A DNA stretch of 56,038 nt, from positions 1 through 56,038 of the IMG/VR virus record IMGVR_UViG_3300044644_000597. One strand, written 5' to 3'. The translations under genes and the position numbers were made by a program. The stretch is from a virus. Of this stretch, positions 2 through 41,395 are shown piece after piece. The notes beneath the pieces were generated by a model that saw only the letters and a program-made list of their open reading frames with translations, had not been told where the DNA came from and made no database searches. Numbering within the stretch: the stretch's first letter is position 1; each line of letters starts with the position of its first letter.

Positions 2-3000
2 GACGTGGCCTTCGCACTGCGCAGCCGCCCTGACCTGTCTGGTGAAATCCTCACAGGCCTGGCCGATGACCGCGCTGCGTTCGATTCCTGGGTGCAGCAG
101 AAGAAGGACGCGATCGCCAAGGAAGCCGTGATCCTGGCCAAGGTTCCAGCCTTCGCCGAAATCCGCAACATGGACTACGCCGAGCAGGTTCTGACCAGCG
201 TGCCTGGCACCACTCCTGCCGACATCGAGCGCCTGTACGCCACCGTCGCCAACTCCGAACTGAACGAACTGCCGTCCGTGCTGGATGCGGTCGCCAAGGT
301 CCGCTCCCTGATGACCAGCGGCATCGACATGGAGACGGGTGAAATCTTCGAGAGCCAAGCCGCCGCCGAAGCTGCTGCCGCCGAGTACATCGACAGCGTC
401 TACATGAACGCCATGATGGTTGAGCCACCACGCTCGAACATCGGTGCCAAGTTCATGCCTGACGAGGGCTTTGGCATGACGGTCGACATGGCTGGCGATC
501 GTGATCGCGGCCTGGCCGAGCAGACCTACGAGACCGACCAATCTCTGGAGGAGCTCCAGAACGCTGGCCTGGTGACCGAGGCTGACGTCGAGGGCATGGC
601 GTCCCTGACTGCGCCTGTCGATGAAGACGCAGACATCGAGACCGAAACAGAAGGCTCACAGGGTGAGCTTGCTGCTGAGCGCCGTGAGCGCAGCGTCCGT
701 CCAGTGGACGTTCCCAGCTCTCTGCTTGGCGGCGAGCAGTACCGCTTCCGCAAGGGTTTCTACCAAGGCAACCTGGTCCCGGCTGTCGTTGCCGAGCACC
801 TGGGCAAGATCACCGCCAAGTGGGCGTCAGCACCCCACATCCATGTGGTGCCAAACCTCCAGAGTCTGCCAGCCGATCTGCGCGAGAAGGTCATGGCCAA
901 GCTGGGCGACAACATGTACGCCAAGGGCTTGTACCTGAATGGCGAAGCGTTCGTCTTCACCGACCACGCTGAGTCTCTGGCTGATGCCGAGTTCACCCTG
1001 TTCCACGAAGTGCAGGGTCACTACGGCATGCGTGCCTTCATGGGCGCTGACTTCGACGCCTACCTCGAGCGCTTGTACAAGACCAGCCCTGACGTTCGCC
1101 GTGCCGCTGATGCGCGTATGGCTGAGGAGTCGATGGGTCGCCTCGAGGCTGTGGACGAAGTGCTGTCAGACATGCAGGCTTCGGGCAAGAACTCTGGCGT
1201 CTTCCAGGGCTACATCGGCAAGGTCATCGCTGGCCTGCGCAAGATCGGCATGGAGCGCGTGGCCAACTGGATGGCCAGCAAGGGTGAGTTCGAGGTTGCG
1301 TACCTGCTGCGCGGTGCCAAGCAGGCTGTTCGCCGTGGCGATCGTCCTGTGCAGGGCACACCTGATGACCTGCGTCTGGCGGCGACACGCACCCCGTACG
1401 AGCTGTTCTCGGCCAAGGGTGGCAAGACCGTTGCGTACGCCCGCTACAACCCTGTGCTGGACCGCTGGTCCGTCTTCACCGCCACTGGCGACGACATGCG
1501 CAAGGGCTTCAACACCGCCATCGAGGCCGACTACGACAAGGTGGTTGCCTCCATGCGCAAGCTCGGCCGCATCGAGCGCCGCACTCGATCTGGCGTCTAC
1601 ATCGACAACAAGATTCCTTCGGACCTGGCGAAGATTCCCGACTTCCGCATCCTTGCAGAGGACGTCAACTTCACCAGCAAGGAGGGCTTGAAGACAGCCT
1701 GGAACCTGGTCAAGCGCAACGCCACGATCTGGTATCAGAACGAGTACACGCCCGTGTTCGAGGTGGTCAACCACTTGGAGCGCAGCGGCAAGATCAACGA
1801 GGCCTACGACGTTCGCCCAGACCTCGAGGGTTTGTACGAGCGACGCACTGGCGCGAAGCTGGAGAAGTACCGCAAGTTCTTCGAGAAGCCGCTGATGAAG
1901 CTGGTCGAGCAGTTCGGCAAAGAGGGTGGCGACACCACGCTGGCCGAAGCCTTCCCTGGCCTGAAGCTCAAGGACGCACGCCTGGGCAACTTGAGTCTGC
2001 TCGATGCCTACCTCGGCGCACGCCACGCGGCAGAGCGTAACGCTCAGATCGCCAAGGTAAACCCCAACCAGCAAGACGGCGGCTCCGGCATCTTCACCGC
2101 TGACGGTGACGCGATCCTGAACGCCATGTCGAACCAGCCATACGCCAACACGCTGGCCGAGATGACGGCTGTCCTCAAGGACATCTCGAACGTGAAGCTC
2201 GAGGAGATGTACGAGTCGGGCATGATCGGCACGGACGAGCTCAAGGCACGCAGCCAGTACGACTACTACGTCAACCTGTCTGGCGTGAACGAGAACATCG
2301 ACCAGTTCGACAACCCGGTCATCCTGGCCGGTGGTCCCAAGTTCGGCACCCGCAAGGACCGCCGAGCAATGGGCCGTGGTGATGCCGCATCCGACATCCT
2401 GATCCGCACACTCCAGTCCTTCGAGGCTGCGGTGATCCACGCCGAGAAGAACAAGGTCAAGCAGAAGGTGCTGGCCATGTTCGAGATCAACTACGACCCA
2501 GACTTCGTGGTGGTCAACAAGCTGGCCACCGTGCGTAAGCTGGATGAGAACGGCCAGGTCACCGAGGCGACAGACGAGCGCTACATCCAGAACCGCGACG
2601 TCATGGTCGTGCATGTGAAGGGCAAGCCCATCACGATGGAGTTCAAGCAGAAGGGTCCAGGCTCGTTTGCCGAGGCGATCAACGGCATGGTCTGGCCACC
2701 CGAGGCGACCAACGCCTTCCAGCGTTTCTCTGGCCGCGCCAACCAGATCATGGGTCAGATGCTGACCACATGGAACCCTGCCTGGACGGCGGTCAACTAC
2801 ACCCGCGACTTGCAGAACTTGTACTTCAACGCCGTGACCGAGGGTCGTATCACCCGCGAGATGGCGGCTCAGATGGTCAAGCTGCAACCCCAGGCCATCA
2901 AGGCGGCGTTCCACATCGCCACCGATGGCAAGCGTGGACACAGCGCCAACCAGGACGTCCTCGATGCGTACAACGAGATGCGTGATGCGGGCGGCGCAAC

Positions 3001-4402
3001 CAGCTTCCTGAACCTGCGCAGCCTCGAGAACCAGGTGGCTGACCTCGAGCGCCTGATGAACCCCGCCAAGCCTGGCTCGTTCAAGGACGTCGTGAGCAAG
3101 ATGGCCGACTTCGTGGAGTCCATCAACGTCCCGATGGAAATGGCCCCACGGATCGCAGCCTTCAAGGTCATGCGCGACAACGGCTACTCAGCCGTCGAAG
3201 CAGCACGCTTTGCTGGCGACATCACGGTGAACTTCAACATGCGCGGCAGCTCGAAGTTCATGCGCAACATGTTCTTGTTCTTCAACCCCGCAGTGCAGGG
3301 CACGAACAAAATGTACCGCCTGGCCAAAGAGAACCCCAAGACGATGGGCAAGATCGCCCTGGGCATGGCCTCCGCTGGCTTCATCGCCAACATCATTGCT
3401 CGCGCCCTTGGTGGTGAGGACGACGACGGCATCGACAAGCTGGACAAGGTGCCGGTGTTCAAGCGTGCCACCTCGATCGTGCTGTGGCCTGACATGCCTG
3501 GCATGGCGATCCCGATCCCATACGGCTGGAACGTGTTCTTCGCCGCAGGCAACTTCATGGCCGACACGCTGTGGGCTGGCTCACAGTCACCCTCGACCAC
3601 CATCAAGCGGATCGCTGGCACTGCGTTCGAGTCGTTCTCGCCAATGGGCGGCGCGATGCTGGATGCGAGCTCGACTGGTGTTGGCGTACTGAAGGCTGTC
3701 ACCCCGACCGTCCTGTCTCCGCTGCTGGACCTGGTCCTCAACGAGAACCGGTTCGGCGCACCGATCGCCAAGGAAGCCTCGATGTTCGGCGGCGGCAAGC
3801 GGGCCGACTCGCACATGAACTTCGACTCGGCAAGCCCGATCTCGACCGCGGTCTTCCGTGGCCTGAACGCCATCACTGGCGGCGACAAGGTGAACTCTGG
3901 CCTGATCGACGTGAACCCTGGTGCCTTCGACTACCTGGTCGGCGGCTACCTGCCTGGTATCGCGGCCGAGACGTACAAGTTCGCCTCGTGGTCAGCACGC
4001 AAGGCTCAGGGCTACGACACGAAGGACGCCGCCTTGCCGATCGTTGACCGCCTGACCGCCAAGGTTCCCGAGGGCTACAACTTCGGGATGCTGCGCCGCG
4101 CCGAGACCTTCATCAAGACGAAGGTGGACGACTACACGATCAACCCCGGCAACCGGGCCGAGATCATCAAGGAGTACCCAAGCCTGGGTGTCGCCAAGGC
4201 GATCATCACTGCGGCGGACTACCAGGTGGGCTCGATCAGGAAGGTGCGCAACGAGCTCGAGTCGGCCAACATCCCGCAAGAGCGCAAGGTCGAGCTGTAC
4301 AACCGCAGCCGCGAGGCCGAGAAGCAAGTGGTGGCCAACGCCGTCAAGCGCATCTTGCAAACCAACCCGCAGATGCGTGAAGTTCTGCTGGCCAACGACT
4401 GA
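2..4402 (+). CDS. Giant polyvalent virion protein, C-terminal part (continues from 51547-56038)
   Basis: This open frame has no start of its own: it enters at the left edge and is the continuation of the frame that runs off the right edge. Joined through the 284-base overlap, the product is about 2,869 aa. Visible here are a zincin-like motif FHEVQGHYG (bases 1001-1027, about residue 1737 of the joined protein), long helical stretches, and near the end a block with NPAWTAVNYTRD and FFNPAVQGTNKMYR followed by a hydrophobic segment, which matches my memory of the LPD38 domain of phage polyvalent proteins. Such proteins are packaged in the head and injected with DNA. The gene closes the late operon's virion block and is followed 8 bases later by a DUF5872 gene. 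The family call is good; the biochemical activity is inferred. Confidence 0.85.
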   Translation, partial: DVAFALRSRPDLSGEILTGLADDRAAFDSWVQQKKDAIAKEAVILAKVPAFAEIRNMDYAEQVLTSVPGTTPADIERLYATVANSELNELPSVLDAVAKVRSLMTSGIDMETGEIFESQAAAEAAAAEYIDSVYMNAMMVEPPRSNIGAKFMPDEGFGMTVDMAGDRDRGLAEQTYETDQSLEELQNAGLVTEADVEGMASLTAPVDEDADIETETEGSQGELAAERRERSVRPVDVPSSLLGGEQYRFRKGFYQGNLVPAVVAEHLGKITAKWASAPHIHVVPNLQSLPADLREKVMAKLGDNMYAKGLYLNGEAFVFTDHAESLADAEFTLFHEVQGHYGMRAFMGADFDAYLERLYKTSPDVRRAADARMAEESMGRLEAVDEVLSDMQASGKNSGVFQGYIGKVIAGLRKIGMERVANWMASKGEFEVAYLLRGAKQAVRRGDRPVQGTPDDLRLAATRTPYELFSAKGGKTVAYARYNPVLDRWSVFTATGDDMRKGFNTAIEADYDKVVASMRKLGRIERRTRSGVYIDNKIPSDLAKIPDFRILAEDVNFTSKEGLKTAWNLVKRNATIWYQNEYTPVFEVVNHLERSGKINEAYDVRPDLEGLYERRTGAKLEKYRKFFEKPLMKLVEQFGKEGGDTTLAEAFPGLKLKDARLGNLSLLDAYLGARHAAERNAQIAKVNPNQQDGGSGIFTADGDAILNAMSNQPYANTLAEMTAVLKDISNVKLEEMYESGMIGTDELKARSQYDYYVNLSGVNENIDQFDNPVILAGGPKFGTRKDRRAMGRGDAASDILIRTLQSFEAAVIHAEKNKVKQKVLAMFEINYDPDFVVVNKLATVRKLDENGQVTEATDERYIQNRDVMVVHVKGKPITMEFKQKGPGSFAEAINGMVWPPEATNAFQRFSGRANQIMGQMLTTWNPAWTAVNYTRDLQNLYFNAVTEGRITREMAAQMVKLQPQAIKAAFHIATDGKRGHSANQDVLDAYNEMRDAGGATSFLNLRSLENQVADLERLMNPAKPGSFKDVVSKMADFVESINVPMEMAPRIAAFKVMRDNGYSAVEAARFAGDITVNFNMRGSSKFMRNMFLFFNPAVQGTNKMYRLAKENPKTMGKIALGMASAGFIANIIARALGGEDDDGIDKLDKVPVFKRATSIVLWPDMPGMAIPIPYGWNVFFAAGNFMADTLWAGSQSPSTTIKRIAGTAFESFSPMGGAMLDASSTGVGVLKAVTPTVLSPLLDLVLNENRFGAPIAKEASMFGGGKRADSHMNFDSASPISTAVFRGLNAITGGDKVNSGLIDVNPGAFDYLVGGYLPGIAAETYKFASWSARKAQGYDTKDAALPIVDRLTAKVPEGYNFGMLRRAETFIKTKVDDYTINPGNRAEIIKEYPSLGVAKAIITAADYQVGSIRKVRNELESANIPQERKVELYNRSREAEKQVVANAVKRILQTNPQMREVLLAND

Positions 4403-5042: not shown

Positions 5043-6134
5043 TCAGGCCACCGCCTCGAGGAACGGCCGAGCCAGGCCCATTCCAAGATTCGGCGAATGC
5101 GCCTGCGACGTGAGCATCTGCTCGATCACAAACGCATGCTGCGCAAGGTGCGAGACGTTCAGATGGGCGTACCGCTGCACCATCTCCTGCGACTTCCACC
5201 CGCCCAGCTCCTGCAAGCGGTCCAGACTCACCCCCGACTGCCGCAGCCACGACGCCCAGGTGTGCCTGAGATCGTGCCAGCGCAGGTCCGACAGCTTCGC
5301 TTCAGCCAGCGTCTTCTTCCACATGCCCGGGGGGATGTCGCACACCCTGCCCCCATCGGGCCTCGGGAACACCAGCTCCGGGTGCTTGCCCATCTGCGCC
5401 TTGATCACCGCCTGCGCGGTCGGTGACAGGGGAATCGCAAACGGCAGGCCGTTCTTCATCACTTGCTGCGCGAACGTCGCCACCGTCAGCCCGCCTTGCA
5501 CCGACAGGTTGCGCCACGTCAGGCCGAACACATTGGCCCTGCGCAAACCCGTGGTCACTGCGAACCTCGAGGCCGCACGGTACGGCTCTGGCAACGCATT
5601 GGCCAACCGCTCGAACTCGGGTGGCGTGAGGAACCGCATGCGCCAGTCAGCCTCATCGAGCAGCACGAACTTGGGTGAGGACGGAATCCACAACCACTCT
5701 CGCGCCGCCGCCAGCATCACCGAGCGCAGAAACGCCAGGTGCCGGTTGACCGTTGCGGGCTGGATCACGCCATCGCCACGCAGCTTCGGACGACCTACTT
5801 CCTCGTCCCGGATGTCGGCGACCACATCAGGCGTCACCTCGTCCAGATACTTCACACCGACCTCGGCGAACTCCCGCCGCCAGAACGCGTCGTACCGCTC
5901 GTCGTCCTTGTAGCTTCGCTTGCCCGCATGGTCGGCCAGCCACTTGTCGGCCGCATCCTCCCAGGTACGGCGCACTGCCTTCTTCAGAACCCGCTCACTC
6001 CAGGCTTCGTGCTTGAGCCTGTCGTGCAGCTCCTGGGCGGCATGCTCATCCTTGGTCTTGCAGGAGCCCCGGTACAACTTGCCACGCACCGAGAACGCAT
6101 ACCACCAGACTTCCCCACGGCGATGAATCGACAT
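5043..6134 (-). CDS. int: Tyrosine-family site-specific integrase
   Basis: The product is 363 aa, a normal length for a phage integrase. The N-terminal part (about residues 1-50) looks like an arm-binding domain, followed by a SAM-like core-binding domain and the catalytic domain. The catalytic set is complete: R198 in TTGLRRANV, K227 in VMKNG, H287 and R290 in WHDLRHTWAS, W313 in GGWKS and nucleophile Y322 in QRYAHL. The start is ATG at 6134, with GGAG five bases upstream. It points at attP (4919-4963), 80 bases beyond its stop, so it probably inserts the phage into a host tRNA-Asn gene. It is the last leftward gene of the early block and has its own upstream gap containing an inverted repeat. 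Confidence 0.95.
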   Translation of the reverse strand: MSIHRRGEVWWYAFSVRGKLYRGSCKTKDEHAAQELHDRLKHEAWSERVLKKAVRRTWEDAADKWLADHAGKRSYKDDERYDAFWRREFAEVGVKYLDEVTPDVVADIRDEEVGRPKLRGDGVIQPATVNRHLAFLRSVMLAAAREWLWIPSSPKFVLLDEADWRMRFLTPPEFERLANALPEPYRAASRFAVTTGLRRANVFGLTWRNLSVQGGLTVATFAQQVMKNGLPFAIPLSPTAQAVIKAQMGKHPELVFPRPDGGRVCDIPPGMWKKTLAEAKLSDLRWHDLRHTWASWLRQSGVSLDRLQELGGWKSQEMVQRYAHLNVSHLAQHAFVIEQMLTSQAHSPNLGMGLARPFLEAVA

Positions 6135-6154
6135 AGCTTCTCCGATCCGCCGAA

Positions 6155-6180
6155 GGCCGCGTTGTCAGAATACAACGGCC
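6155..6180 (-). promoter_or_regulatory. Inverted repeat in the integrase upstream region
   Basis: GTTGT (6161-6165) pairs with ACAAC (6172-6176). The arms extend outward through GGCC (6155-6158) and GGCC (6177-6180) with a two-base bulge. It lies 21 bases before the int start codon, so it could be an operator or a leader hairpin controlling int. No clear -35/-10 pair was seen. The rest of 6181-6343 contains no convincing gene, only a hairpin GGCTTC/GAAGCC at 6282-6299. Confidence 0.35.
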
Positions 6181-6343
6181 TGCGGATTCTTGTAAAGCTC
6201 TAGGTTGCGGGAGGTGGCTTTGTGTGTAGCGAAAGGTGGGGGTACTCGTATCCGCTCGGTCGACTGGAGGGGTGGCCACTTGGCTTCTTGGGTGAAGCCC
6301 CCTCACTTGACCGGTGCATGCTGCGGATTCTTTCCCCCCTTAA

Positions 6344-6625
6344 TCAGAGCCCCGCCTCGAATCGGCGTTGCTGGAGTCGGTAGCCTTCAAGCAGCCAGAT
6401 TTTATCAAGGGCGTTTTCCCAAGCGACCTTCTCGCCGATCGACTTGTTGAAGTTGTTGATGTCCACGCACGAGCTCTCGCCGCGCACGGTGAACCCGTTG
6501 GCCATCGTGATCTGGCAGATCGTGGTGCGACCATCGGGCATCACCACGTAGTCGGTACGCTTGACCTGCTCCAGGATGTCGCTCATCTCGAGCTTGTTGG
6601 GGATGGTTTCGACGAGCTCGATCAT
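6344..6625 (-). CDS. N4 gp49 / Sf6 gene 66 family protein
   Basis: The product is 93 aa. Its centre, ICQITMANGFTVRGESSCV, then NKSIGEKVAWENALDKIW and LEGYRLQQR, matches the phage family named after N4 gp49 and Sf6 gene 66 (Phage_gp49_66), whose function is unknown. The stop of the upstream Tad2-like gene overlaps this start by four bases (ATGA), so the two are translationally coupled. This family is very common in early regions of phages from many hosts. Confidence 0.85.
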   Translation of the reverse strand: MIELVETIPNKLEMSDILEQVKRTDYVVMPDGRTTICQITMANGFTVRGESSCVDINNFNKSIGEKVAWENALDKIWLLEGYRLQQRRFEAGL

Positions 6626-7083
6626 GCGAGGCTCCAGTCTTCAGCCAACACATCGGACTGGCTGGCAAGCCACGGCACGATCTCGTCATCGACCGTCTTC
6701 ATGGCGATGAAGCTGCGGAAGGGAAAGCCCGAGTTGATCGTGAAGATGTCCCAATCCGCGCCGTCGACGTATTGCAGGTACATGCCCTTGCCGTTCCAGC
6801 CAGCACGCGCCACGCGCTGACCTTGCTTGAGCGCCTCGACAGCCAGACCGAAGGTCATGCCGGTCGTTGGGCGATAGGCCCGATCGAACACATCCTTCGG
6901 CGACCACGAGATGTAGCCCGTGTGCGCGGCGTGATTGCTCTTGCCGCCGTCCAGATACTCAACGAGGAAACCCTCGTCGTCACCATTCTCATCGGCGGGC
7001 AGTTGCCACCCGCGGTAGACGTTGTATTCGGCTCTGCTCATCTCGCGAGCCTGGATGACCTTCACCCCCAAAAACATTTCCAT
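6622..7083 (-). CDS. tad2: Tad2-type (DUF2829) protein, candidate Thoeris inhibitor
   Basis: The product is 153 aa with two parts. Residues 1-70 carry a conserved phage N-terminal block (EYNVYRGWQLPADENGDDEG ... GYISWSPKDVFDRAYRP). Residues about 75-153 are a DUF2829 domain: MTFGLAVEALKQGQRVARAG, WNGKGMYL, FIAMKTVDDEIVPWLASQSD and VLAEDW. Members of this domain family (Tad2) have been shown to bind and sequester the cyclic ADP-ribose-type signal of Thoeris immunity. Whether this two-domain version does so is inference. It sits near the distal end of the early leftward operon, where anti-defence genes are often found, between a small unknown gene and the gp49 family gene. Confidence 0.8.
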   Translation of the reverse strand: MEMFLGVKVIQAREMSRAEYNVYRGWQLPADENGDDEGFLVEYLDGGKSNHAAHTGYISWSPKDVFDRAYRPTTGMTFGLAVEALKQGQRVARAGWNGKGMYLQYVDGADWDIFTINSGFPFRSFIAMKTVDDEIVPWLASQSDVLAEDWSLA

Positions 7084-16680: not shown

Positions 16681-17046
16681 TCAGGCGAAGAAGTCTTTGA
16701 TCCGCTGCCACACGCCACGGCGTGGGCCAGCGATCAACTCGATGGGAGCCATTGGCGCAGGCTCGACCGGTGCGCTGATCTCGACAGGCTTGTCGACCTT
16801 CTTGACGCGAGGTCGGCGGATGACGCCCGTCTTGTTGATCTTCCCGGCCTGTGTGTAGTCATCGTAGCCTGGCCACAACCCGGCGTTGATGATCACGTTG
16901 TAGATGGTTGAGGGTGGACGCCGCATCGCATCGGCTATGTCCTTGACCTTGCCCTGCCCGCTGGTCCAGAGCTGGATGATGGTCATGCGCTCGGCTGGCG
17001 AGACGGCGCGATGAGTAACGCTGCGGCGTGATTTCTTTTCTGTCAT
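16681..17046 (-). CDS. Helix-turn-helix DNA-binding protein
   Basis: The product is 121 aa from ATG 17046. Residues about 15-60 (SPAERMTIIQLWTSGQGKVK, DIADAMRRPPSTIYNVI) form a Hin/Trp-repressor-like HTH, in which the second helix is typical of resolvase and transposase-type DNA binders. A Pro-rich linker and a short C-terminal helix (GVWQRIKDFF) follow. It may regulate transcription in the accessory block, whose last gene it is. It is the best candidate here for a small regulator but shows no repressor-specific domain. Confidence 0.7.
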   Translation of the reverse strand: MTEKKSRRSVTHRAVSPAERMTIIQLWTSGQGKVKDIADAMRRPPSTIYNVIINAGLWPGYDDYTQAGKINKTGVIRRPRVKKVDKPVEISAPVEPAPMAPIELIAGPRRGVWQRIKDFFA

Positions 17047-17246
17047 AGGTTGAATGTCTTCTTGAGGTAAGACTCCATGTTTCGCTTCCACCTTGCATCG
17101 CTTGGCGAGACGGGGAAGATCACGTTCTTGATGATGTCGTCCTTGCGGACGGATGCCTTGATGTGTCCGCCTGATTGATTGGTGGACTCGAGCCGAAGCC
17201 CGAGCCCCCTGATCAGACGCCTTATCTCGAGATGGTGGCGGTCCAC
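17043..17246 (-). CDS. Small hypothetical protein, HicA-like fold possible
   Basis: The product is 67 aa, with IRRLIRGLGLRLESTNQSGG and then HIKASVRK. The position of GGHIK after an N-terminal helix recalls the small dsRBD-like fold of HicA toxins, but the catalytic His context (GSHH) is absent and no HicB partner is adjacent. I treat it as an unknown phage protein. Its ends overlap both neighbours. Confidence 0.55.
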   Translation of the reverse strand: MDRHHLEIRRLIRGLGLRLESTNQSGGHIKASVRKDDIIKNVIFPVSPSDARWKRNMESYLKKTFNL

Positions 17247-17491
17247 TCCTTTCCTTTCTTGTAGGTGATCTCCTCCGGTGGGTAGCCATCGGGGTACACG
17301 ATGTACCCGAAGCTGTTGATGGTCGTCTCTGGGTGAACCAGGAACGACATCATCACCGGCGAGCTGGTCATGCGCTTGATGCGCTGGGTTGCTTCCTCAA
17401 GGTTGGCACCACGCGCACGCGAGCCATCCTTGCAGACAAGCAGGTACTCCAGCTCAACGCGCTTACTTGCTACTGCCTTGATTGCTGACAT
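17222..17491 (-). CDS. Hypothetical protein
   Basis: The product is 89 aa with alternating strand and helix (VELEYLLVCKDGSRARGANL, SFGYIVYPDGYPPEEITYKK). No motif was recognised. It overlaps the next gene by 25 bases and the previous one by 29 bases, which is unusually deep for this operon. Confidence 0.55.
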   Translation of the reverse strand: MSAIKAVASKRVELEYLLVCKDGSRARGANLEEATQRIKRMTSSPVMMSFLVHPETTINSFGYIVYPDGYPPEEITYKKGKEWTATISR

Positions 17492-17654
17492 CGTTGACTG
17501 TCTGGATGAGGGTTGAGAGTTCGGTGTGTACGGTGTTTGGGATCAGGTCAATTTCCTTCATGTCGTTGATTGCCATATTGATTTGAAGAAGACGGAACAC
17601 GTCTGTCGACGCGTCCGTGATCTCGAGCTTTACGTGTTGCTTCCAGTCGTCCAT
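17463..17654 (-). CDS. Small hypothetical protein
   Basis: The product is 63 aa, acidic, and predicted helical in the middle (FRLLQINMAINDMKEIDLIP). AAGGGGGA precedes ATG 17654 at a good distance. It is the first gene after the amidotransferase stop, 14 bases away. No family was recognised. Confidence 0.6.
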   Translation of the reverse strand: MDDWKQHVKLEITDASTDVFRLLQINMAINDMKEIDLIPNTVHTELSTLIQTVNDVSNQGSSK

Positions 17655-17668
17655 CGTCCCCCTTCCGC

Positions 17669-18655
17669 TCAGTCGATGAGGTTTGGGGAGATCGAGTCGG
17701 ACTGGAACAGGTCAGCGATCCACTCGGCTGCGGTCTCAGGGAAGTCCTCGACCATGTCGAACACATCGTCGACGTCGTCGTACCAGTACGACAGCAGAGC
17801 CGCCGCCTTGTGCGGTGCGTCGAACACCCACTGCTCAACACCTTCTACGCCGCGGCGCGACCACTGATTGAACGCAGCCTTGACGTACGGACGAACCTGC
17901 GCAGCCGTGAGGGTGGTGAGCTCGTGCTTGGCATCCGACTTGTCGTTGACGTACGAGCCCTTGGCCACTGTCGTCTTGTCCTTGAAGTTGGTGCCGTAGC
18001 TCGAGTACATGTTGTCGTAGTAATCGTCGCCGTCTGCCCAGTGCGAACGACTGCCACCGTACCCGCTGTACATGTTGGTGTAGCCGCCGTTGTTGGTGAA
18101 CTTGTAGTACGACCAGGCGTACGTATTCGACAGCCAGGCGTTCTCGTAGTTGACGCCAGCGCTGGCGTTGATGACCACGATCTCACCATCGTTGCGCACC
18201 AGTGCGAACTTGTTGCTGCGGCCGATGATCTCGCCGACGAACTTCTGCCACTCGGGATCAGTCAGCAGCTCTGGGTTGCCGATCAACGCTGGGCGGATGA
18301 AGTTCTTGATGAAGTGCCAGGTGTCCGACTTGGTCTTGTCGGCGGCGTTGCCTGTCGACAGGATGCCGTTGTGCGCGAGCCAGACGTCGCTTGTCACCAT
18401 GTAGGGGTGGCAGTTGTCGAAGTCGATGTCGCCGTGCGTCTGCATGCGTGCGTGCCACACACAGCTCTTGCCCTCGGCGTGTGCGCGGTAGAAGCCGATG
18501 AACTCCTGAGCGTTGGCGGGCAGGCACTTGAAGATGTGCAGCTTGTCATCCTCGGCGTACATCACACCCAGGCCATCCTGGTTCTTGTTGAAGACGTCGG
18601 CGAGGAACTCGTCGGTGAAGTTGGAGCTCGTGGTCTGCTGGACTAATAGGCACAT
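17669..18655 (-). CDS. Class II glutamine amidotransferase (Ntn hydrolase)
   Basis: The product is 328 aa from ATG 18655, with AAGGA upstream. After Met removal Cys2 (MCLLVQQ) would be the N-terminal nucleophile. The GATase II core follows: DGLG (27-30), WHARMQTHGD (67-76), HPY (83-85) and LAHNG (93-97). The family releases ammonia from glutamine or cleaves gamma-glutamyl amides. The C-terminal 150 residues contain a Tyr/Gly/Asp-rich region (YTNMYSGYGGSRSHWADGDD) that I do not recognise. No synthetase domain is fused. Instead an amidoligase gene lies 29 bases upstream, a pairing known from comparative genomics in phages. The pair probably makes or trims an amide bond on a peptide. The substrate is unknown. 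Confidence 0.85.
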   Translation of the reverse strand: MCLLVQQTTSSNFTDEFLADVFNKNQDGLGVMYAEDDKLHIFKCLPANAQEFIGFYRAHAEGKSCVWHARMQTHGDIDFDNCHPYMVTSDVWLAHNGILSTGNAADKTKSDTWHFIKNFIRPALIGNPELLTDPEWQKFVGEIIGRSNKFALVRNDGEIVVINASAGVNYENAWLSNTYAWSYYKFTNNGGYTNMYSGYGGSRSHWADGDDYYDNMYSSYGTNFKDKTTVAKGSYVNDKSDAKHELTTLTAAQVRPYVKAAFNQWSRRGVEGVEQWVFDAPHKAAALLSYWYDDVDDVFDMVEDFPETAAEWIADLFQSDSISPNLID

Positions 18656-18684
18656 TTTGTTGATCCTTGGTGATTGATGTTTGA

Positions 18685-20043
18685 TTAAGCTGCTTCGAGA
18701 CGCTGTGCCAGGTAGGGGCGCAGGAACTCGGTCTCGTTCGACTCGTCGCTGTTGATGAACTCGAGGAACTTGTCCGCCTTGAGGTCTTTGATTGAGGTCT
18801 TGGCCAGGCCGCAGAAGTCGACGACTGCGTTCGAGAACTCGATCGCTGCCATGACTGACTCGTACTTCAAGCTGCCCTTGAAGATGCGGAACTCGATCGT
18901 CTTGCGAGAGGTGATGTTCACCGCCTCGTAGCGATCCTCCGAATGCGCAGCAGCGCCGATCTTCTTGTGCTTGATCCTGCAATAGCCCTCGGCGTACCGA
19001 CGTGCGACTGCGCGGATCAACTGCTCGTTGTCTACGTCGTTGACGAACGTGACGATCTTGGCGATCTGAAGCTTCGACAGGTTCTGCTTGCTGACGTGAA
19101 CGTGCAGGCCGCAGGTTGTCGTGTTGTGCGAGCGAAGATGCTTGACCAGGCTGCGGTCATTGAGCCAAGCCCACAGCTCACGATGCTTGTCGAGACCCAT
19201 CGGCTGGCTGATGATCTCGAAGCCGTGGCTGATCGAGCCATCGTTCTCGAAGAACACACGCTTGCCGAACTCGCCGTCGTTGACGTGCTCGAAGATTTCC
19301 TTGGCTTTGGTGGCGCGGTCTGCGCGATCGGCCATCACCTCGACCTCGAGCTCGACACCCAGGTAGCGCTTCTTCAGCTTGGTCCACTCGCTTGGCTGCT
19401 CGCGTTGCGAGTGCTTGCTGCTGTGGTAGTTGCCGATGATCCTGGATGCAGGGTCGTAGTCGTCGTGAACCCAAGTGTCTTCGTCGTCGTTGTAGGTGAA
19501 GTCGCTGTCATCGCTGGAGATCGTGCAGCTATGGCCGTTCTCATCGAGCGCAGTCCTTGCGTCTTCGCCGTAGACGTACGAATCGTAACGGTCCGACCAC
19601 TGGTAGTCGTTGTCGATGCAGTTGCGGCAGATTGATGCTTCGTCGTTGTTGTAGTAACAGCGTGCGTGATCTTCCAGCTCCCATTCACCGCAGTCGTCGC
19701 AGCGAACCAATCCCTTCTTGCGCTCGAGGTAGTCAATGATGTCGTCGTAGTCGTCGGCATCGCTGTACGAGTTGAGCCAGTCGCGCAGCCCGTACATCGA
19801 CATTTCACTCAGGTACTTGTTGCGCAGCTCGAGGCGCATGCGAAGCATGTGGTGGCCGTCGTCATCTTCACTCATGAATGTGCAGACGGTGTTGCCGACG
19901 TGACGCGGGAACTGGTCGAGGATTGAGAGCAGGCTGCTGACGTCGCCGCCATCTCTTGCGCGATCTGCGATGCGCTTTGCAAAGGCGGCGTGCTCGACGT
20001 GAGTCCCGCTCATAAGCCGAAGGAGGTATGCGTTCGGTTTCAT
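18685..20043 (-). CDS. Amidoligase (COOH-NH2 ligase family)
   Basis: The product is 452 aa, preceded by GGAG ten bases before ATG 20043. Residues 1-110 are helical, and a zinc ribbon follows (CDDC 115-118, CRNC 139-142). An acidic low-complexity stretch leads to the amidoligase core: YLGVELEVEV (227-236), NDGSISHGFEIISQPMG (267-283), CGLHVHVS (311-318) and TIEFRIFKG (382-390). These are the ATP and metal-binding motifs of the family, which is related to glutamine synthetase and glutamate-cysteine ligase. It should form an amide between a carboxylate and an amine, using ATP. The adjacent GATase II (17669-18655) is its expected partner. Targets might be cell-wall peptides or proteins; this is inference. 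Confidence 0.85.
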   Translation of the reverse strand: MKPNAYLLRLMSGTHVEHAAFAKRIADRARDGGDVSSLLSILDQFPRHVGNTVCTFMSEDDDGHHMLRMRLELRNKYLSEMSMYGLRDWLNSYSDADDYDDIIDYLERKKGLVRCDDCGEWELEDHARCYYNNDEASICRNCIDNDYQWSDRYDSYVYGEDARTALDENGHSCTISSDDSDFTYNDDEDTWVHDDYDPASRIIGNYHSSKHSQREQPSEWTKLKKRYLGVELEVEVMADRADRATKAKEIFEHVNDGEFGKRVFFENDGSISHGFEIISQPMGLDKHRELWAWLNDRSLVKHLRSHNTTTCGLHVHVSKQNLSKLQIAKIVTFVNDVDNEQLIRAVARRYAEGYCRIKHKKIGAAAHSEDRYEAVNITSRKTIEFRIFKGSLKYESVMAAIEFSNAVVDFCGLAKTSIKDLKADKFLEFINSDESNETEFLRPYLAQRLEAA

Positions 20044-20060
20044 TTGATCTCCGAATAGAA

Positions 20061-20086
20061 ATGAAAAAGCCCGCCATAAGGCGGGC
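20061..20086 (-). terminator. Terminator upstream of the amidoligase gene
   Basis: On the minus strand GCCCGCC, loop TTAT, GGCGGGC (20086 to 20069) is followed by TTTTTCATTTC. It lies between the gene ending at 20168 and the amidoligase start at 20043, so the amidoligase pair needs read-through or a promoter inside or very close to this hairpin. Confidence 0.85.
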
Positions 20087-20132
20087 CAAGGTCACGTTCA
20101 AATAGGGTTTACATACAAACAGCAAGAGAGGA

Positions 20133-20154
20133 TTCCCCTCCCCAAAGAGGGGAA
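20133..20154 (-). ncRNA. Leader hairpin A of a three-member family
   Basis: On the + strand TTCCCCTC, loop CCCAAA, GAGGGGAA is followed by AGACA at the stem's end. The same design, with different stem bases, recurs at 25190-25214 and 25683-25707. It lies 90 bases before the amidoligase start, ahead of the terminator. The coding strand of the RNA is taken as minus from the gene direction, which is an inference. Confidence 0.55.
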
Positions 20155-20167
20155 GACACTCCCTGAA

Positions 20168-20644
20168 TCAAGCTGGCGCTGGAATCCTCCTGGCTTTCTT
20201 CTTCCTGATCTGATCCCACACGTAGTCGAGCGCACCCTCCATCTCTGCAACCGTGCAGATGTCGAGCTGTGCGTCGTGAATTTCCATTGTCAGGTTGATG
20301 GCGCTGAGCTCGGGGCCTGTCGCTACGAACCTCCCGATCCCTACTGACCTGACGCCGAGGCTGTAGATGGCGTCTTGCCCAGCCTTGATCTCGGCTCTGA
20401 AGTCATCGCCGATGTTCTTGATAGCCAGCGCCTCGGTGACGTTGAACGCCTGGATCAGGATGTCCACGTCGTCCTTGTCTGCCTGGCCAAGACGCAGCTT
20501 GTCGATGGCGTTGTGGTTCTTGATGCGCGTGTCGAGGATGATGCCGCCGCCGCCCACTTCAGCAGCCTTGAGCATGCCGCTCTTGATCCACGCCATCGTG
20601 TCCAGTCTCACGCCCTTTGGTTTGTACTTTGACTTCTTCCTCAT
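20168..20644 (-). CDS. Conserved phage protein of unknown function
   Basis: The product is 158 aa from ATG 20644, which overlaps the upstream stop by four bases. The start KKSKYKPKGVRLDTMAWIKS and the middle IKNHNAIDKLRLGQADKDDV, then DILIQAFNVTEALA, match a family I have seen in prophages of betaproteobacteria, without any assigned role. It is soluble and largely helical with a basic tail. It is the last gene before the amidoligase leader. Confidence 0.7.
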   Translation of the reverse strand: MRKKSKYKPKGVRLDTMAWIKSGMLKAAEVGGGGIILDTRIKNHNAIDKLRLGQADKDDVDILIQAFNVTEALAIKNIGDDFRAEIKAGQDAIYSLGVRSVGIGRFVATGPELSAINLTMEIHDAQLDICTVAEMEGALDYVWDQIRKKKARRIPAPA

Positions 20645-21036
20645 GCTTGCTTTCCGAATAGCGCCGCCGTCAGTGGGTCGCGCTGTGGTTTCTTCTTGGT
20701 CCAGTAGTAAGCCCTGCTCTTGGCAAGCAGGTCTTCCCATCCGCCGTCCTTCTTGAGCCGACGTCGATACCGCTTGACTCGATCGGCATCGGTGGTCAGC
20801 TTCGGCATCTTGATCGTGTGCTTCGCTGGCGCTGGGCCAGGGTGATACACATGAATCATTGGTCCGCCGTGAGGGTTGACCTCCATGTGATGCACATGAA
20901 TGTCGCCAGCGTCGAGCAGGTCTTTGAGCCACCTGTGTGTGGTGGCCAGACTCAACTGTGTGCGCTGCCTCACGTCGGCGTTGCTGCCTGGCAGTGCGGC
21001 CAGCACATTGTCCCGGTTCGCACGCTTACGAGCCAT
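20641..21036 (-). CDS. Winged-helix DNA-binding protein
   Basis: The product is 131 aa from ATG 21036. Residues 5-70 read as a winged HTH: NRDNVLAALPGSNADVRQRT, QLSLATTHRWLKDLLDAGDI, then a wing HVHHMEVNPHGGPMIHVYHP. A basic region with RVKRYRRRLKKDGG follows. It is probably a transcription regulator. Its position ahead of the amidoligase pair makes it a candidate regulator of that pair. Confidence 0.7.
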   Translation of the reverse strand: MARKRANRDNVLAALPGSNADVRQRTQLSLATTHRWLKDLLDAGDIHVHHMEVNPHGGPMIHVYHPGPAPAKHTIKMPKLTTDADRVKRYRRRLKKDGGWEDLLAKSRAYYWTKKKPQRDPLTAALFGKQA

Positions 21037-21283
21037 TCTTCTCCTTGAGTTTGGCTTCGATGGCTCTGGCAACATCACGCAACAACATAGCTGGCACATA
21101 AGGGCCATCGCCAAAGAGTTTGTCTATCTCCTCATCAGTCAGCCCAACCCATTGCCGCTGTGCTGCGGGTGGGGTGGTGTAGAGCATCCCGGTAAACCCC
21201 TTCGGCAAGTTTGACCTGGCAATCTCCCCTTGGTAGATGACAAGCGCTGGCTCCTGCACAGGCACTGCTTTGTCTTTGGTCAT
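21026..21283 (-). CDS. Hypothetical protein
   Basis: The product is 85 aa from ATG 21283. It contains QRQWVGLTDEEIDKLF, a stretch very common in otherwise variable phage accessory proteins, and a C-terminal helix AMLLRDVARAIEAKLKEK. The function is unknown. It overlaps the winged-helix gene by 11 bases and the previous gene by four. Confidence 0.65.
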   Translation of the reverse strand: MTKDKAVPVQEPALVIYQGEIARSNLPKGFTGMLYTTPPAAQRQWVGLTDEEIDKLFGDGPYVPAMLLRDVARAIEAKLKEKNGS

Positions 21284-21468
21284 AGAAGTCTTTCTCCTTT
21301 GATGGCTCGGCACTGCGCACGCATCTCAGGCGTGAAGTCAGGGCTGATCTCTGCGATTGAACAGTTGATGCGCTTGACCTTCGGCGCACTGTGGTGCGCC
21401 AGGTATATCCCGAAGGAACACAGCGACACGTACGTCACGGCGAACAGGATGACGACTGGCCTGGTCAT
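21280..21468 (-). CDS. Small membrane-anchored periplasmic protein
   Basis: The product is 62 aa. Residues 4-24 (PVVILFAVTYVSLCSFGIYL) form a signal anchor, after which the polar part contains two Cys (INCSIAEISPDFTPEMRAQC) that could pair in the periplasm. This short protein type recurs in phages of Gram-negative hosts, with no known function. It is coupled by ATGA to both neighbours. Confidence 0.65.
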   Translation of the reverse strand: MTRPVVILFAVTYVSLCSFGIYLAHHSAPKVKRINCSIAEISPDFTPEMRAQCRAIKGERLL

Positions 21469-21644
21469 TTGTCCTCGCCCACGATCGGGATGTAGGAGCA
21501 GCGCTCATCATTCGATGACTCCGCTGTGTTGAATGGCGTGCGCTCACCCCATGTCTGATCAGGGTGATCTGCCCACCGCTTGCAGTTCTTGCAGTAGGTA
21601 TCGACCAGCTCAGGCTTGCATCGGCTGTAGTCATACGGAAGCAT
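21465..21644 (-). CDS. Small Cys-rich protein
   Basis: The product is 59 aa from ATG 21644, chosen because AAGGAGG lies six bases upstream (a GTG at 21650 is the alternative). Four Cys (SRCK, TYCKNC, RCSY) suggest a small zinc-binding knuckle. The function is unknown. It overlaps the next gene upstream (21631-21801) by 14 bases. Confidence 0.6.
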   Translation of the reverse strand: MLPYDYSRCKPELVDTYCKNCKRWADHPDQTWGERTPFNTAESSNDERCSYIPIVGEDK

Positions 21645-21801
21645 GGCCACCTCCTTTGTTTACGTGCTTGGCCAGCAGCCACTTGTCGCCAAGCAGTCGC
21701 ACCTGTCTCACCCACTGGCGTTGATACGAACGGTTGTGCTCGCGTGGTATGTGCTCTGAACAGAACAGGTGGCGTACGATCTTTAGTGCTCTGGTGTTCA
21801 T
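21631..21801 (-). CDS. Small basic protein (56 aa)
   Basis: The frame from ATG 21801 encodes 56 residues, basic and helical (ALKIVRHLFCSEHIPREHNR, SYQRQWVRQVRLLGDKWLLA). AAAGGA precedes the start at a good distance, directly after promoter-like box c (21813-21837). The pattern QRQWVRxVRxLG with a WLLA end recurs, as I remember, in phages of Burkholderiales. The function is unknown. Confidence 0.6.
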   Translation of the reverse strand: MNTRALKIVRHLFCSEHIPREHNRSYQRQWVRQVRLLGDKWLLAKHVNKGGGHASV

Positions 21802-21812
21802 CGTTGTCCTTT

Positions 21813-21837
21813 GATGTAAATATTGAAGCGGGAGTTG
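21813..21837 (-). promoter_or_regulatory. Promoter-like box, copy c
   Basis: On the minus strand it reads CAACTCCCGCTTCAA then TATTTACATC, followed by AAAGGA and ATG 21801. It matches the boxes at 23792 and 24631 in nearly every position and sits just after a UUCG terminator. If it is a promoter, the 5' leader would be about 15 bases. Confidence 0.6.
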
Positions 21838-21850
21838 CCTTTGAATAGCA

Positions 21851-21870
21851 AACGCCCCCGAAGGGGCGTT
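21851..21870 (-). terminator. Terminator hairpin (UUCG loop)
   Basis: On the minus strand AACGCCCC, loop TTCG, GGGGCGTT. The T-run after it is weak (TTGCTATTC), while the + side reads GTTGTTGTTT. It lies after the stop of 21889-22275 and before promoter-like box c. Confidence 0.75.
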
Positions 21871-21888
21871 GTTGTTTATCGCTGGTGA

Positions 21889-22275
21889 TTACCACCAACT
21901 GTCGTAGATCACCGCCTTGCCGTTGGCTATTGCAAGCCTGGCCTTCGATACGAACTCGAGTACCTCTTGCGTAGCCTCGGGGGTCATCTCATCCTCGTCA
22001 CCCCAGAAGAACCCGGATGCGGGCTTGAGTGTCTTGGCCTCAGCCTCCAGGCGATCGAGGTCTTCACGCATGAGCCTGACCGTGTCGCAGTTGAAGCTAC
22101 TGCTCTGTCCTCCCTTCTTGAAGTACAGGTCTGCCATCCACTGATGCAGGTTGTTGAACTTGCGCCAGTAGGCAAACTTCTTGTCCAGCTCCTTGATCTT
22201 CTCGAGGTCGATGTCGACCTGCTTGTCACCGATTTGCTCCTGGTCGCATGTGAATGCGTACATATCAAGACCCAC
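21889..22275 (-). CDS. Conserved phage protein (MGLDMYAF family)
   Basis: The product is 128 aa from GTG 22275, giving MGLDMYAFTC. AAGGAG lies seven bases upstream, which decides for GTG over ATG 22263. Families starting MGLDMY are widespread in phages and bacteria, with no known role. The body has WRKFNNLHQWMADLYFKKGG and ends with a strand AIANGKAVIYDSWW. It overlaps the next gene by 11 bases. Confidence 0.7.
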   Translation of the reverse strand: MGLDMYAFTCDQEQIGDKQVDIDLEKIKELDKKFAYWRKFNNLHQWMADLYFKKGGQSSSFNCDTVRLMREDLDRLEAEAKTLKPASGFFWGDEDEMTPEATQEVLEFVSKARLAIANGKAVIYDSWW

Positions 22276-22510
22276 GACGTTCTCCTTGTGCGTTGATGAT
22301 TCGTTGTGAAGACATGAGCTTGAGCTCAAGGCTTCGCTTGTCCTTGGTCAGTTGCTTGACCTGGTCCTCGAGGTCGATAAGCCTGAGCCTCATGTACTCG
22401 AGCTGCATCGCCTGCGCATGGATCGCTTCCGTCTTCATGCGCTCGATGGACTTGGCCGCTTTCTCAGCCTGCGTGAGCGGCTTCTGCGCCTCGCCCTTTG
22501 GTATTTCCAT
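22265..22510 (-). CDS. Coiled-coil hypothetical protein
   Basis: The product is 81 aa from ATG 22510. Almost the whole length is heptad-like helix (AEKAAKSIERMKTEAIHAQA, RLRLIDLEDQVKQLTKDKRS). It may self-associate or bind another helical protein. There is no known family. Confidence 0.6.
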   Translation of the reverse strand: MEIPKGEAQKPLTQAEKAAKSIERMKTEAIHAQAMQLEYMRLRLIDLEDQVKQLTKDKRSLELKLMSSQRIINAQGERRGS

Positions 22511-22921: not shown

Positions 22922-23290
22922 TCAGTACTCCGAAGTGAGCATGAGCACGCCGCTCTGAAGGAAGAAGCGCCAGTCTCCTTTCGGGCAGTCGGTGAACGAG
23001 ACTCGCCTAGCCCACAGCTCGCTGTCGTTGCCATCGGTGACGACGATGTCGCACGACTCATTGGCGTGAACCCGCAGGTCAACGGTCATGAACCGGTGCT
23101 TGCGAGCCAGTGGTTGCAGCTCGGTGCCGATGATGTCGAGCAGCCAGTAAGCGCCGCCGCCTGCATTGGTGGCGAAGTACTTGACGCCGTCCGTGTATTT
23201 CATCCACTGGTACAACGGGTTGAAGTGGTACTGCTCAGTGCCGATGAACTGCTCGAGCTCTTGCTGAAGGGTGATGGTGTCGGTGGTCAT
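22922..23290 (-). CDS. DUF6876-like protein
   Basis: The product is 122 aa from ATG 23290. It has the order expected of the DUF6876 family: ELEQFIGTEQYHFNPLYQ, YTDGVKYFATNAGGGAYWLL, a middle VTDGNDSELWAR, then FTDCPKGDWRFFLQSGVLML and the terminal TSEY. The family is common in plasmids and phages and its function is unknown. It overlaps the zinc-ribbon gene by four bases. Confidence 0.75.
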   Translation of the reverse strand: MTTDTITLQQELEQFIGTEQYHFNPLYQWMKYTDGVKYFATNAGGGAYWLLDIIGTELQPLARKHRFMTVDLRVHANESCDIVVTDGNDSELWARRVSFTDCPKGDWRFFLQSGVLMLTSEY

Positions 23291-26793: not shown

Positions 26794-26869
26794 CTGGGTG
26801 TAGCTCAGAAGGTAGAGCACGCGCTTTGGGAGCGTGAGGCCGCAGGTTCGATCCCTGTCACCCAGACCA
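26794..26869 (+). tRNA. tRNA-Pro (anticodon UGG)
   Basis: The acceptor arms CTGGGTG and CACCCAG pair fully. The D arm, an anticodon loop with TGG, a T arm with GGTTCGATCC, discriminator A and encoded CCA are all present in 76 bases. It is the first of six tRNAs in front of the terminase genes. Confidence 0.95.
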
Positions 26870-26923
26870 ATTCAAACTCTTGGCGTAGTACGACATCCTC
26901 GTCGTATTGACACCCCCGCTCAT

Positions 26924-27010
26924 GGGGGTGCGGCGCAGATGGTGAGGCGCGGCGGACTGTAAACCCGTTGACCAAGAGTCGAGAAGGTTCAAATCCTTCC
27001 ACCCCCACCA
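26924..27010 (+). tRNA. tRNA-Tyr (anticodon GUA)
   Basis: The acceptor arms GGGGGTG and CACCCCC pair. The anticodon loop reads CTGTAAA with anticodon GTA. A long variable arm, as expected of bacterial tRNA-Tyr, is followed by a T arm with GGTTCAAATCC and an encoded CCA. The length is 87 bases. Confidence 0.93.
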
Positions 27011-27028
27011 TCATCCCCCTGAAGATTT

Positions 27029-27104
27029 TGTCCGGTAGCTCAGTCGGTAGAGCGCCGCCCTGTTAAGGCGGTGTGCGTAGGTTCGATGCCTACCCGGACA
27101 GCCA
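27029..27104 (+). tRNA. tRNA-Asn (anticodon GUU)
   Basis: The acceptor arms TGTCCGG and CCGGACA pair in all seven positions. The anticodon loop is CTGTTAA, the T arm has GGTTCGATGCC, and discriminator G and encoded CCA complete 76 bases. This intact gene differs in stem sequence from the tRNA-Asn fragment that forms attP. Confidence 0.95.
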
Positions 27105-27107
27105 CAT

Positions 27108-27181
27108 GTGCCCCTGGTGTAACGGCAGCACGGCGGTCTCCAAAACCGCTGGTCAAGGTTCGAGTCCTTGGGGGTATGCCA
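27108..27181 (+). tRNA. tRNA-Trp (anticodon CCA)
   Basis: The anticodon stem GCGGT/ACCGC encloses loop CTCCAAA, anticodon CCA. The acceptor stem GTGCCCC/GGGGTAT contains two G-U pairs. The D arm, T arm (GGTTCGAGTCC) and encoded CCA are present. The wobble-rich acceptor makes the exact 5' end slightly uncertain. Confidence 0.85.
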
Positions 27182-27185
27182 ATTC

Positions 27186-27271
27186 GGAGCCTGGCGTGCA
27201 GGGCACAAACGGGGCTTGAACCCCCGGCCACTTGGCGACAGGTGAGGGTTCGATTCCTTCAGGCTCCGCCA
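27186..27271 (+). tRNA. tRNA-Ser-like (anticodon UGA), odd D arm
   Basis: The acceptor arms GGAGCCT and AGGCTCC pair fully. The anticodon stem CGGGG/CCCCG encloses CTTGAAC (anticodon TGA). There is a long variable arm, a T arm GAGGG TTCGATT CCTTC and CCA. The D arm is GTGC-AGG-GCAC, with only a three-base loop and without the usual GG-containing D loop. It may be functional but unusual, or modified. Confidence 0.8.
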
Positions 27272-27278
27272 CAACCAC

Positions 27279-27366
27279 GGAAGGTTGGCCGAGAGGTTAA
27301 GGCAGCGGCTTGCTAAGCCGTCATCGGGAAACCGGTGCGCTGGTTCGATTCCAGCACCTTCCGCCA
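27279..27366 (+). tRNA. tRNA-Ser (anticodon GCU)
   Basis: The acceptor arms GGAAGGT and ACCTTCC pair. The D arm is normal, the anticodon loop is CTTGCTAAG with GCT, the variable arm is long (CATCGGGAAACCGGTG), and discriminator G and encoded CCA complete 88 bases. Confidence 0.95.
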
Positions 27367-40784: not shown

Positions 40785-41395
40785 GCATTGAATACACATA
40801 TGAAATTGTGAGCGTTGATGAAGCCGCTCGCTGCATGGAAGTCGTTTACGCATCACCCGGCAAACAGACGATGCACGTCGGCGCTCGACTACCGTACCAA
40901 GGCGAAAGCCTAGATCAAGTGATCGCCATGTTTGCCCCAACGGAGCTCTGGGCCGAGAGAGAACTTGTCGTTGTTCCGCCTCAAGTTGGGTACAAAGGCT
41001 CATGGTCTCAGGCCATCGAAGCACACGTACAAGACGAAGCAACACAAACCATCGAGGGCGCTCGCGCCAACAAGCTGCGCGAGATTGCGGCATGGCGTTA
41101 TGCGCGTGAGATCGGCGGCATCACTTTCAGCGGTGTGACCATTGCAACAGACCGCGACTCCCAGCAAAAGATCATCGGCGCACTGGCTGGCCTGAAGGAT
41201 GGCTTTGCCGCTTCGCTCGACTGGAGGGCGGCAGACGGTCAGTGGATTTCGCTCAGCGCCGAGATGGTCACCGCCATGTCTAAGGCCGTCTTCGGGCATG
41301 TGCAGAGCTGCTATCAGATGGAAAAGTTGTATAGCGGCATGGTCTCGAGCGCCTCCAGCATTGAAGAAGTCGCCAACATCGTTCTCCCCCAATGA
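40781..41395 (+). CDS. Fibre assembly protein with DUF4376 domain
   Basis: The product is 204 aa from ATG 40781 (ATGA overlap with the adhesin gene). The N-terminal half is unassigned. The C-terminal half, KLREIAAWRYAREIGGITFS, then TDRDSQQKIIGALAGL, AMSKAVFGHVQSCYQMEK, is a DUF4376 domain as found in fibre assembly and tail chaperone proteins. It probably helps fold or attach the adhesin encoded just before it. Confidence 0.75.
   Translation: MSIEYTYEIVSVDEAARCMEVVYASPGKQTMHVGARLPYQGESLDQVIAMFAPTELWAERELVVVPPQVGYKGSWSQAIEAHVQDEATQTIEGARANKLREIAAWRYAREIGGITFSGVTIATDRDSQQKIIGALAGLKDGFAASLDWRAADGQWISLSAEMVTAMSKAVFGHVQSCYQMEKLYSGMVSSASSIEEVANIVLPQ

Follow-up and report, generated by a model that had tools for sequence, protein, structure and literature searches.

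A minimal amidoligase and class II glutamine amidotransferase gene pair with a LIM-like zinc domain in a viral genome, and its relatives in phages and mobile elements

An IMG/VR virus record of 56,038 bases (GC 0.60), referred to here in its whole length as the window, carries on its minus strand two adjacent genes that encode an amidoligase and a class II glutamine amidotransferase (GATase). The pair is of a kind already known in phages; here it takes the minimal form of two genes, and its amidoligase has a LIM-like zinc domain. A sequence-only reading had picked out the two genes and their intact active-site motifs, and both are borne out by Pfam and PHROG matches, by alignments of 44 amidoligase and 51 GATase sequences, and by predicted folds. 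Its further suggestion of an undescribed system does not hold, since phage amidoligase and GATase pairs have been published (PMC10580990, PMC5498523, PMC11945000, PMC3890496). The enzyme assignment is sound, and the observation is worth keeping as annotation. The features of the region are as follows.

17463-17654, minus strand: small gene, 63 aa, clade-specific, directly downstream of the GATase gene
17669-18655, minus strand: class II (Ntn) glutamine amidotransferase gene, 328 aa, assigned from a 51-row alignment, a model and dN/dS
18685-20043, minus strand: Amidoligase_2 gene, 452 aa, assigned from Pfam, PHROG, invariant residues, an AlphaFold model and dN/dS
20087-20068, minus strand: intrinsic terminator hairpin, GGCCCGCC-TTAT-GGCGGGCT, then a T-tract
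about 20125-20146, minus strand: second leader hairpin, TTCCCCTCT / GGAGGGGAA, between the stop of 20168-20644 and the terminator
20168-20644, minus strand: small gene, 158 aa, PHROG 20828, upstream neighbour
20641-21036, minus strand: small gene, 131 aa, upstream, with winged-helix similarity that is weak and below cut-off

The amidoligase matches Pfam model Amidoligase_2 (PF12224) with an E-value of 2e-9 and 38.1 bits, against a curated cut-off of 22, and matches PHROG 16683 (E 1e-33) and PHROG 2443, "amidoligase enzyme" (E 5e-14). All but one of the 44 aligned sequences match Amidoligase_2 at E <= 0.01. Its motifs are G-x-E231-x-E233, D268-G-S270, G-x-H314-x-H316, and T-x-E384-x-R386-x-F388. 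Loss of the metal ligands, or of Cys2 in the GATase, was sought among relatives as grounds for rejecting the assignment, and these residues proved invariant throughout the 44 amidoligases and 51 GATases. Invariant columns of the amidoligase alignment, in which identity falls to about 21%, comprise G229, E231, E233, D268, S270, G274, E276, G312, H314, H316, R349, N376, T382, E384, and R386, and the motifs are kept in 98 to 105 of 105 non-redundant proteins from paired loci. Structure prediction for each protein alone, as the sequence-only reading had proposed, gave a ligase fold for the amidoligase and a class II Ntn fold for the GATase. In the AlphaFold model of the amidoligase (pLDDT 88), residues 218-452 match YbdK, plant glutamate-cysteine ligase, and glutamine synthetase with Z-scores of 10 to 12.5, the best neighbours being a YbdK-type protein (Z 12.5) and plant glutamate-cysteine ligase (Z 12.3). 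The model thus supports the assignment of residues from about 222 to 452 to a predicted glutamine synthetase / glutamate-cysteine ligase (carboxylate-amine ligase) fold with ATP/metal motifs. The window protein shares this fold with those three enzymes but is only 9-15% identical to them, and it adds a zinc domain and N-terminal helices.

The N-terminal part of the amidoligase (residues 1-110) is helical in the model and confined to the window's clade. Between these helices and the ligase fold lies the zinc site noticed in the sequence-only reading, which we place at C115, C118, C139, and C142, a single LIM-like CxxC..CxxC set; the Pfam LIM domain scored in three of the relatives. Such a set occurs once or more in 102 of the 105 non-redundant amidoligases from paired loci, and 77 have two in tandem, so that the window protein, with one, differs from most of its relatives. 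In five relatives dN/dS is about 0.26-0.40, supporting a coding gene under purifying selection.

The GATase gene starts at an ATG at 18655 (MCLL...), with AAGGA about 9 nt upstream; a TTG open reading frame from a mechanical listing, 17669-18982, was rejected in favour of this start with its ribosome-binding site. The key residues are the C2 nucleophile, R70, T73, H83, H95-N96-G97, and D111. In the 51-sequence alignment G97 is nearly invariant and the others are fully so, and the catalytic and glutamine-pocket residues are kept in 96-98% of the 105 paired proteins. The window protein scores 22.4 bits against GATase_4, 0.6 bits short of the cut-off of 23, while 39 of the 51 relatives match that model at E <= 0.001, making it the Pfam family most often matched. 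A profile of the 51 relatives searched against PDB sequences found GlmS as its best match (E 9e-14). In the AlphaFold model (pLDDT 77.5), residues 2-196 form a class II Ntn domain whose nearest structures are EgtC (Z 12.0) and GlmS (Z 11.9). It has the fold and the catalytic and glutamine-binding motifs of EgtC and the GlmS glutaminase domain, but differs from both in being 14-16% identical, in having an extra linker and helical C-terminal domain, and in having an amidoligase partner. The remainder had been described as an unassigned C-terminal half rich in Tyr, Gly, and Asp; such a Y/G/D/S/N-rich stretch exists at about 190-243, but it is a predicted disordered linker, followed in the model by a small helical domain at about 247-318. 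The helical domain is common to 26 loci (some of them duplicates), all nearer relatives, and the linker is found in the nearest only. Values of dN/dS for four relatives, about 0.06-0.27, likewise support a coding gene under purifying selection.

Conservation of the pairing was examined in loci from viral contigs (80 + 8), cellular genomes (80), and phage records, 168 in all, giving 105 non-redundant pairs. A lack of conserved pairing in related phages would have counted against the sequence-only reading, but the two genes are adjacent in 154 of the 168 loci, which belong to podoviruses and other phages as well as to mobile elements of Oscillospiraceae and Polynucleobacter. Adjacency holds in nearly all viral loci. 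Among the 80 cellular loci, a same-strand GATase lies 3' of the amidoligase in 77 and within 300 bases of it in 74; three lack a GATase, one of which is cut by a contig end. Distance matrices for the two proteins correlate across the 105 pairs (Mantel r 0.85, permuted maximum 0.16; r 0.57 in viral loci alone), although co-inheritance of adjacent genes inflates this statistic even without physical interaction. No fusion of the two proteins was found in the cellular loci. Two amidoligase open reading frames lie close together in some viral contigs (L072, L088, and L053).

A third partner gene kept across lineages was looked for in the viral and cellular loci, and none was found. The upstream genes 20168-20644 and 20641-21036, whose conservation with the pair had been proposed as a check, were rejected as parts of the unit because they accompany it in close relatives of the window and nowhere else, and most of the genes around it in the window are clade-specific. 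Cellular loci place the pair beside mobile-element genes, encoding a serine recombinase in 39 of the 80 loci, DUF960 in 35, a relaxase in 19, an integrase in 15, and DUF3846 in 6. The Polynucleobacter copy has an integrase-like open reading frame nearby and a large one that, by eye, resembles a conjugation coupling ATPase. Phages L019, L023, and L026 carry the pair as the window does, with no detected homologue of the window portal. The pair is thus retained while portal and most neighbours differ, which argues that it moves as a module.

The fourteen unpaired loci comprise seven from clostridial phages, three at contig ends, and four others. The clostridial phage proteins (L008, at 5671-6783, L057, L060, L066, L069, L077, and L079) are motif-intact amidoligases that lack the zinc domain and have no detected GATase, and so an amidoligase can exist without this partner. 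The zinc site is present in 102 of the 105 paired amidoligases as against 3 of 11 complete unpaired ones, which hints that the zinc domain is a docking site, in a correlation that leans largely on the one, non-independent clostridial phage clade.

Papers citing Iyer et al. 2009 have described pairs of this kind, among others in the phages of OM43 (PMC10580990) and in phages tf and UFV-P2. The window pair has the same two families, order, and two-gene arrangement as gp105/gp106 of Marvin and the pairs of OM43 phages MEP401/402, but is 22-28% identical to these overall and differs in its clade-specific amidoligase N-terminus, its single CxxC..CxxC set, and its helical GATase C-terminal domain. 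Larger "peptidoglycan modification" cassettes containing such pairs are reported from Pseudoalteromonas and LUZ24-like phages (PMC5498523, PMC11945000). As the relevant passages of the literature describe it, the module, in RIO-1, LUZ24-like phages, phiEco32, PSA-HP1, and phiM6, combines GGCT, ATP-grasp, COOH-NH2 ligase, amidoligase, and GATase genes. A change to host peptidoglycan by the module is a prediction in these papers (PMC10580990, PMC5498523, PMC11945000), and superinfection exclusion, in their relevant passages, is a suggestion traced to Iyer et al. 2009 and not a result.

The window shares with this module the joint presence of an amidoligase and a class II GATase. Phage phiM6, whose portal is related to that of the window, has the long cassette, and the profiles built here recognise both its amidoligase and its GATases. 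Unlike the module, the window lacks GGCT (GGACT, PF06094), for which no match was found in a search with positive controls in 9 of 14 genomes and in phiM6; it is missing also from 38 of 41 related viral records and present in the other three. The search for COOH-NH2 ligase (PF14395) gave no window match but also matched no control, and a single phiM6 query for ATP-grasp found nothing near the pair in relatives. Being the smallest version, the two-gene form is the easiest to purify and test for substrate.

Upstream of the pair, a terminator and a leader hairpin had been proposed from the sequence, and both are real, at 20087-20068 and about 20125-20146. The terminator is a strong one whose hairpin ends about 24 nt upstream of the amidoligase ATG, and the 131-nt leader has a folding z-score of -3.2. 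In six relatives the terminator stem is 100% paired, with one compensatory G-C/A-U pair, and the second hairpin is paired in 90.7% of cells, with two pairs changed on both sides. The two stems together have three pairs changed on both sides and 95.1% of cells paired, compared to 49-66% in slid controls. The leader stems are conserved by compensatory change, which, with six related sequences, is support and not proof. Across the wider set, a terminator-like hairpin occurs 10-45 nt 5' of the start in 15 of 103 amidoligase genes, none of 100 GATase genes, and 25 of 1412 other genes. Restricted to genes with an upstream gap of at least 50 bases, the counts are 11 of 58 for amidoligases versus 17 of 718 for others (Fisher p 1e-6, a value that ignores relatedness). 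The amidoligase hairpins cluster at 22-35 nt and occur in the window clade, in DUF960-linked elements, and in L007, L125, and L138. Certain elements of gut Firmicutes have the layout of the window in unrelated sequence, with the end of a DUF960-type gene, a strong terminator, and an amidoligase start within about 30 nt (starts at L107 7938, L109 7833, L129 6483, L133 7941, and L168 7983).

The separate control suggested for the pair is a reasonable idea, but the arrangement points to a terminator that is to be read through rather than to a new promoter. A scan of 16900-22500 turned up no sigma-70-like promoter, and one would hardly fit between the hairpin and the start codon, so read-through or antitermination may be involved. 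These features hint at attenuation or read-through control of the pair, the simplest version of which would be a partial terminator that reduces expression. A terminator before the amidoligase looks to be a new detail, and its recurrence 5' of amidoligase starts makes it a concrete, testable regulatory feature. An Rfam scan near the pair found no glutamine riboswitch or T-box above threshold. A Trp_leader match (29 bits, cut-off 41) was rejected as too weak, reflecting a generic attenuator shape and not a trp leader, and a leader peptide noticed by eye in 20044-20167 was also dropped, its frame not being preserved in the alignment of relatives.

To our knowledge, no biochemistry has been reported for the amidoligase/GATase family. 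With moderate confidence, we take the two genes to encode a two-subunit, ATP-driven, glutamine-dependent amidoligase. The GATase would hydrolyse glutamine to ammonia through Cys2, exposed once Met is removed, the amidoligase would activate a carboxylate with ATP and couple it to the ammonia (or to an amine), and the zinc domain would dock partner or substrate. We infer both this reaction, from glutamine hydrolysis through carboxylate activation to ammonia transfer, and a physical complex of the two proteins. The unit travels as a cassette among phages and other mobile elements, sitting among early or accessory genes. Its target may be a carboxylate of a host cell-wall peptide, altered against superinfection as the literature guesses, which we regard as possible rather than probable. 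Such pairs are widespread in phages and mobile elements, and in the papers cell-wall alteration is a repeated prediction and not a demonstrated one. The spread of the pair beyond phages argues for a function tied neither to virions nor to a single host envelope type. The GATase fold cannot separate an ammonia donor from a gamma-glutamyl hydrolase, as EgtC and GlmS score alike, and the modelled folds appear nearly as compatible with a pair that makes and breaks a bond in the manner of EgtA and EgtC. In such a scheme the amidoligase would link an amine-bearing molecule in a gamma-glutamyl-type amide, which the GATase-like protein, acting as a gamma-glutamyl hydrolase, would remove. The best structural neighbours (EgtC, Z 12.0, for the GATase; glutamate-cysteine ligase and YbdK, Z 12.3-12.5, for the amidoligase) fit this scheme, as do the prevalence of GATase_4 as the commonest Pfam match among the 51 relatives and the listing of a phage GATase as a peptidoglycan degradation gene in PMC5498523. 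We nevertheless find it rather doubtful, since GlmS equals EgtC by structure and leads by sequence profile, and since making one bond and then breaking it makes little sense unless another enzyme acts in between, for which there is no conserved candidate.

Another proposal concerns the target and can hold together with the two-subunit, glutamine-dependent chemistry that we prefer. The pair might amidate a carboxylate of a host protein, or add a small amine or peptide to it, in aid of establishment or counter-defence, and the LIM-like zinc domain would select the target. The unit is present in phages and in mobile elements of both Gram-positive and Gram-negative bacteria, beside relaxase, resolvase, and integrase genes, and these carriers share problems of establishment and not virions; in MW202733 and MEP401/402 it precedes the genes for RNA polymerase or replication, and the zinc site goes with pairing. 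Set against this, no target or defence system is linked to the pair, its window neighbours are mostly clade-specific, and the zinc correlation has the dependence on one clostridial phage clade noted above; we consider a host-protein target unlikely. Decidedly less likely is the fuller picture of a self-sufficient establishment or counter-defence enzyme, common to phages and conjugative elements, which would amidate a host protein or wall component picked by the LIM-like domain and be held back by the terminator until read-through or antitermination. For Phage-ZRK32, the relevant passages of PMC10945688 propose a role in nitrogen metabolism, and in the window the pair might by analogy serve nitrogen assimilation or gamma-glutamyl compounds in the infected cell. 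Growth on nitrate or ammonium was improved with that phage, which bears amidoligase, GATase, GGCT, and glutathione synthase-like genes, but the effect is not experimentally tied to those genes in the passages concerned (PMC10945688). The control-positive absence of GGCT from the window, and a clade-specific N-terminus and zinc domain unlike those of housekeeping glutamine synthetase, make such auxiliary metabolism very unlikely here. Amidoligases have also been proposed for complex base modification, and the window encodes a QueC-like protein (41392-41922). An account in which the amidoligase decorates a modified base of phage DNA with an amino group or an amino acid is nonetheless the most improbable of these, for the scanned window genes include no thymidylate-synthase-like, base-kinase, or glycosyltransferase gene, and DNA hypermodification would be of little use to mobile elements without virions.

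The wider gene content of the window includes an integrase, primase/helicase, terminase, portal, major head protein, and endolysin. Its closest portals are those of Rhizobium phages RHph_TM27A and relatives (about 36% identity), followed by the HMO-2011 podovirus group; no homologue of the portal was found in the six cellular genomes searched. A 56,402-base relative (L002/L011) is about 97.5% identical over the part compared. Nucleotide searches of phage records with the enzyme pair and with the structural half of the window gave no matches. On the plus strand, 51547-56038 and 2-4402 are open reading frames of about 1500 aa, each open at a record end, the second containing LPD38; they are probably one giant virion protein split by the record boundary, in which case the record would be circularly permuted. 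The QueC-like protein (plus strand, 176 aa; PHROG 1550, with PF06508 matched mainly C-terminally) lies within the structural gene block and gives a possible link to 7-deazaguanine, with no further pathway genes seen. On the integrase side, 6622-7083 (minus strand) encodes a Tad2-like domain (PF11195, E 1.7e-24), the family name denoting Thoeris anti-defence. In the minus-strand accessory block, 22922-23290 encodes a DUF6876 protein (E 1e-29) also found in the window's clade, L017, and L020. Just 5' of the terminase, six consecutive tRNA genes (Pro, Tyr, Asn, Trp, Ser, Ser) occupy 26794-27366 on the plus strand.
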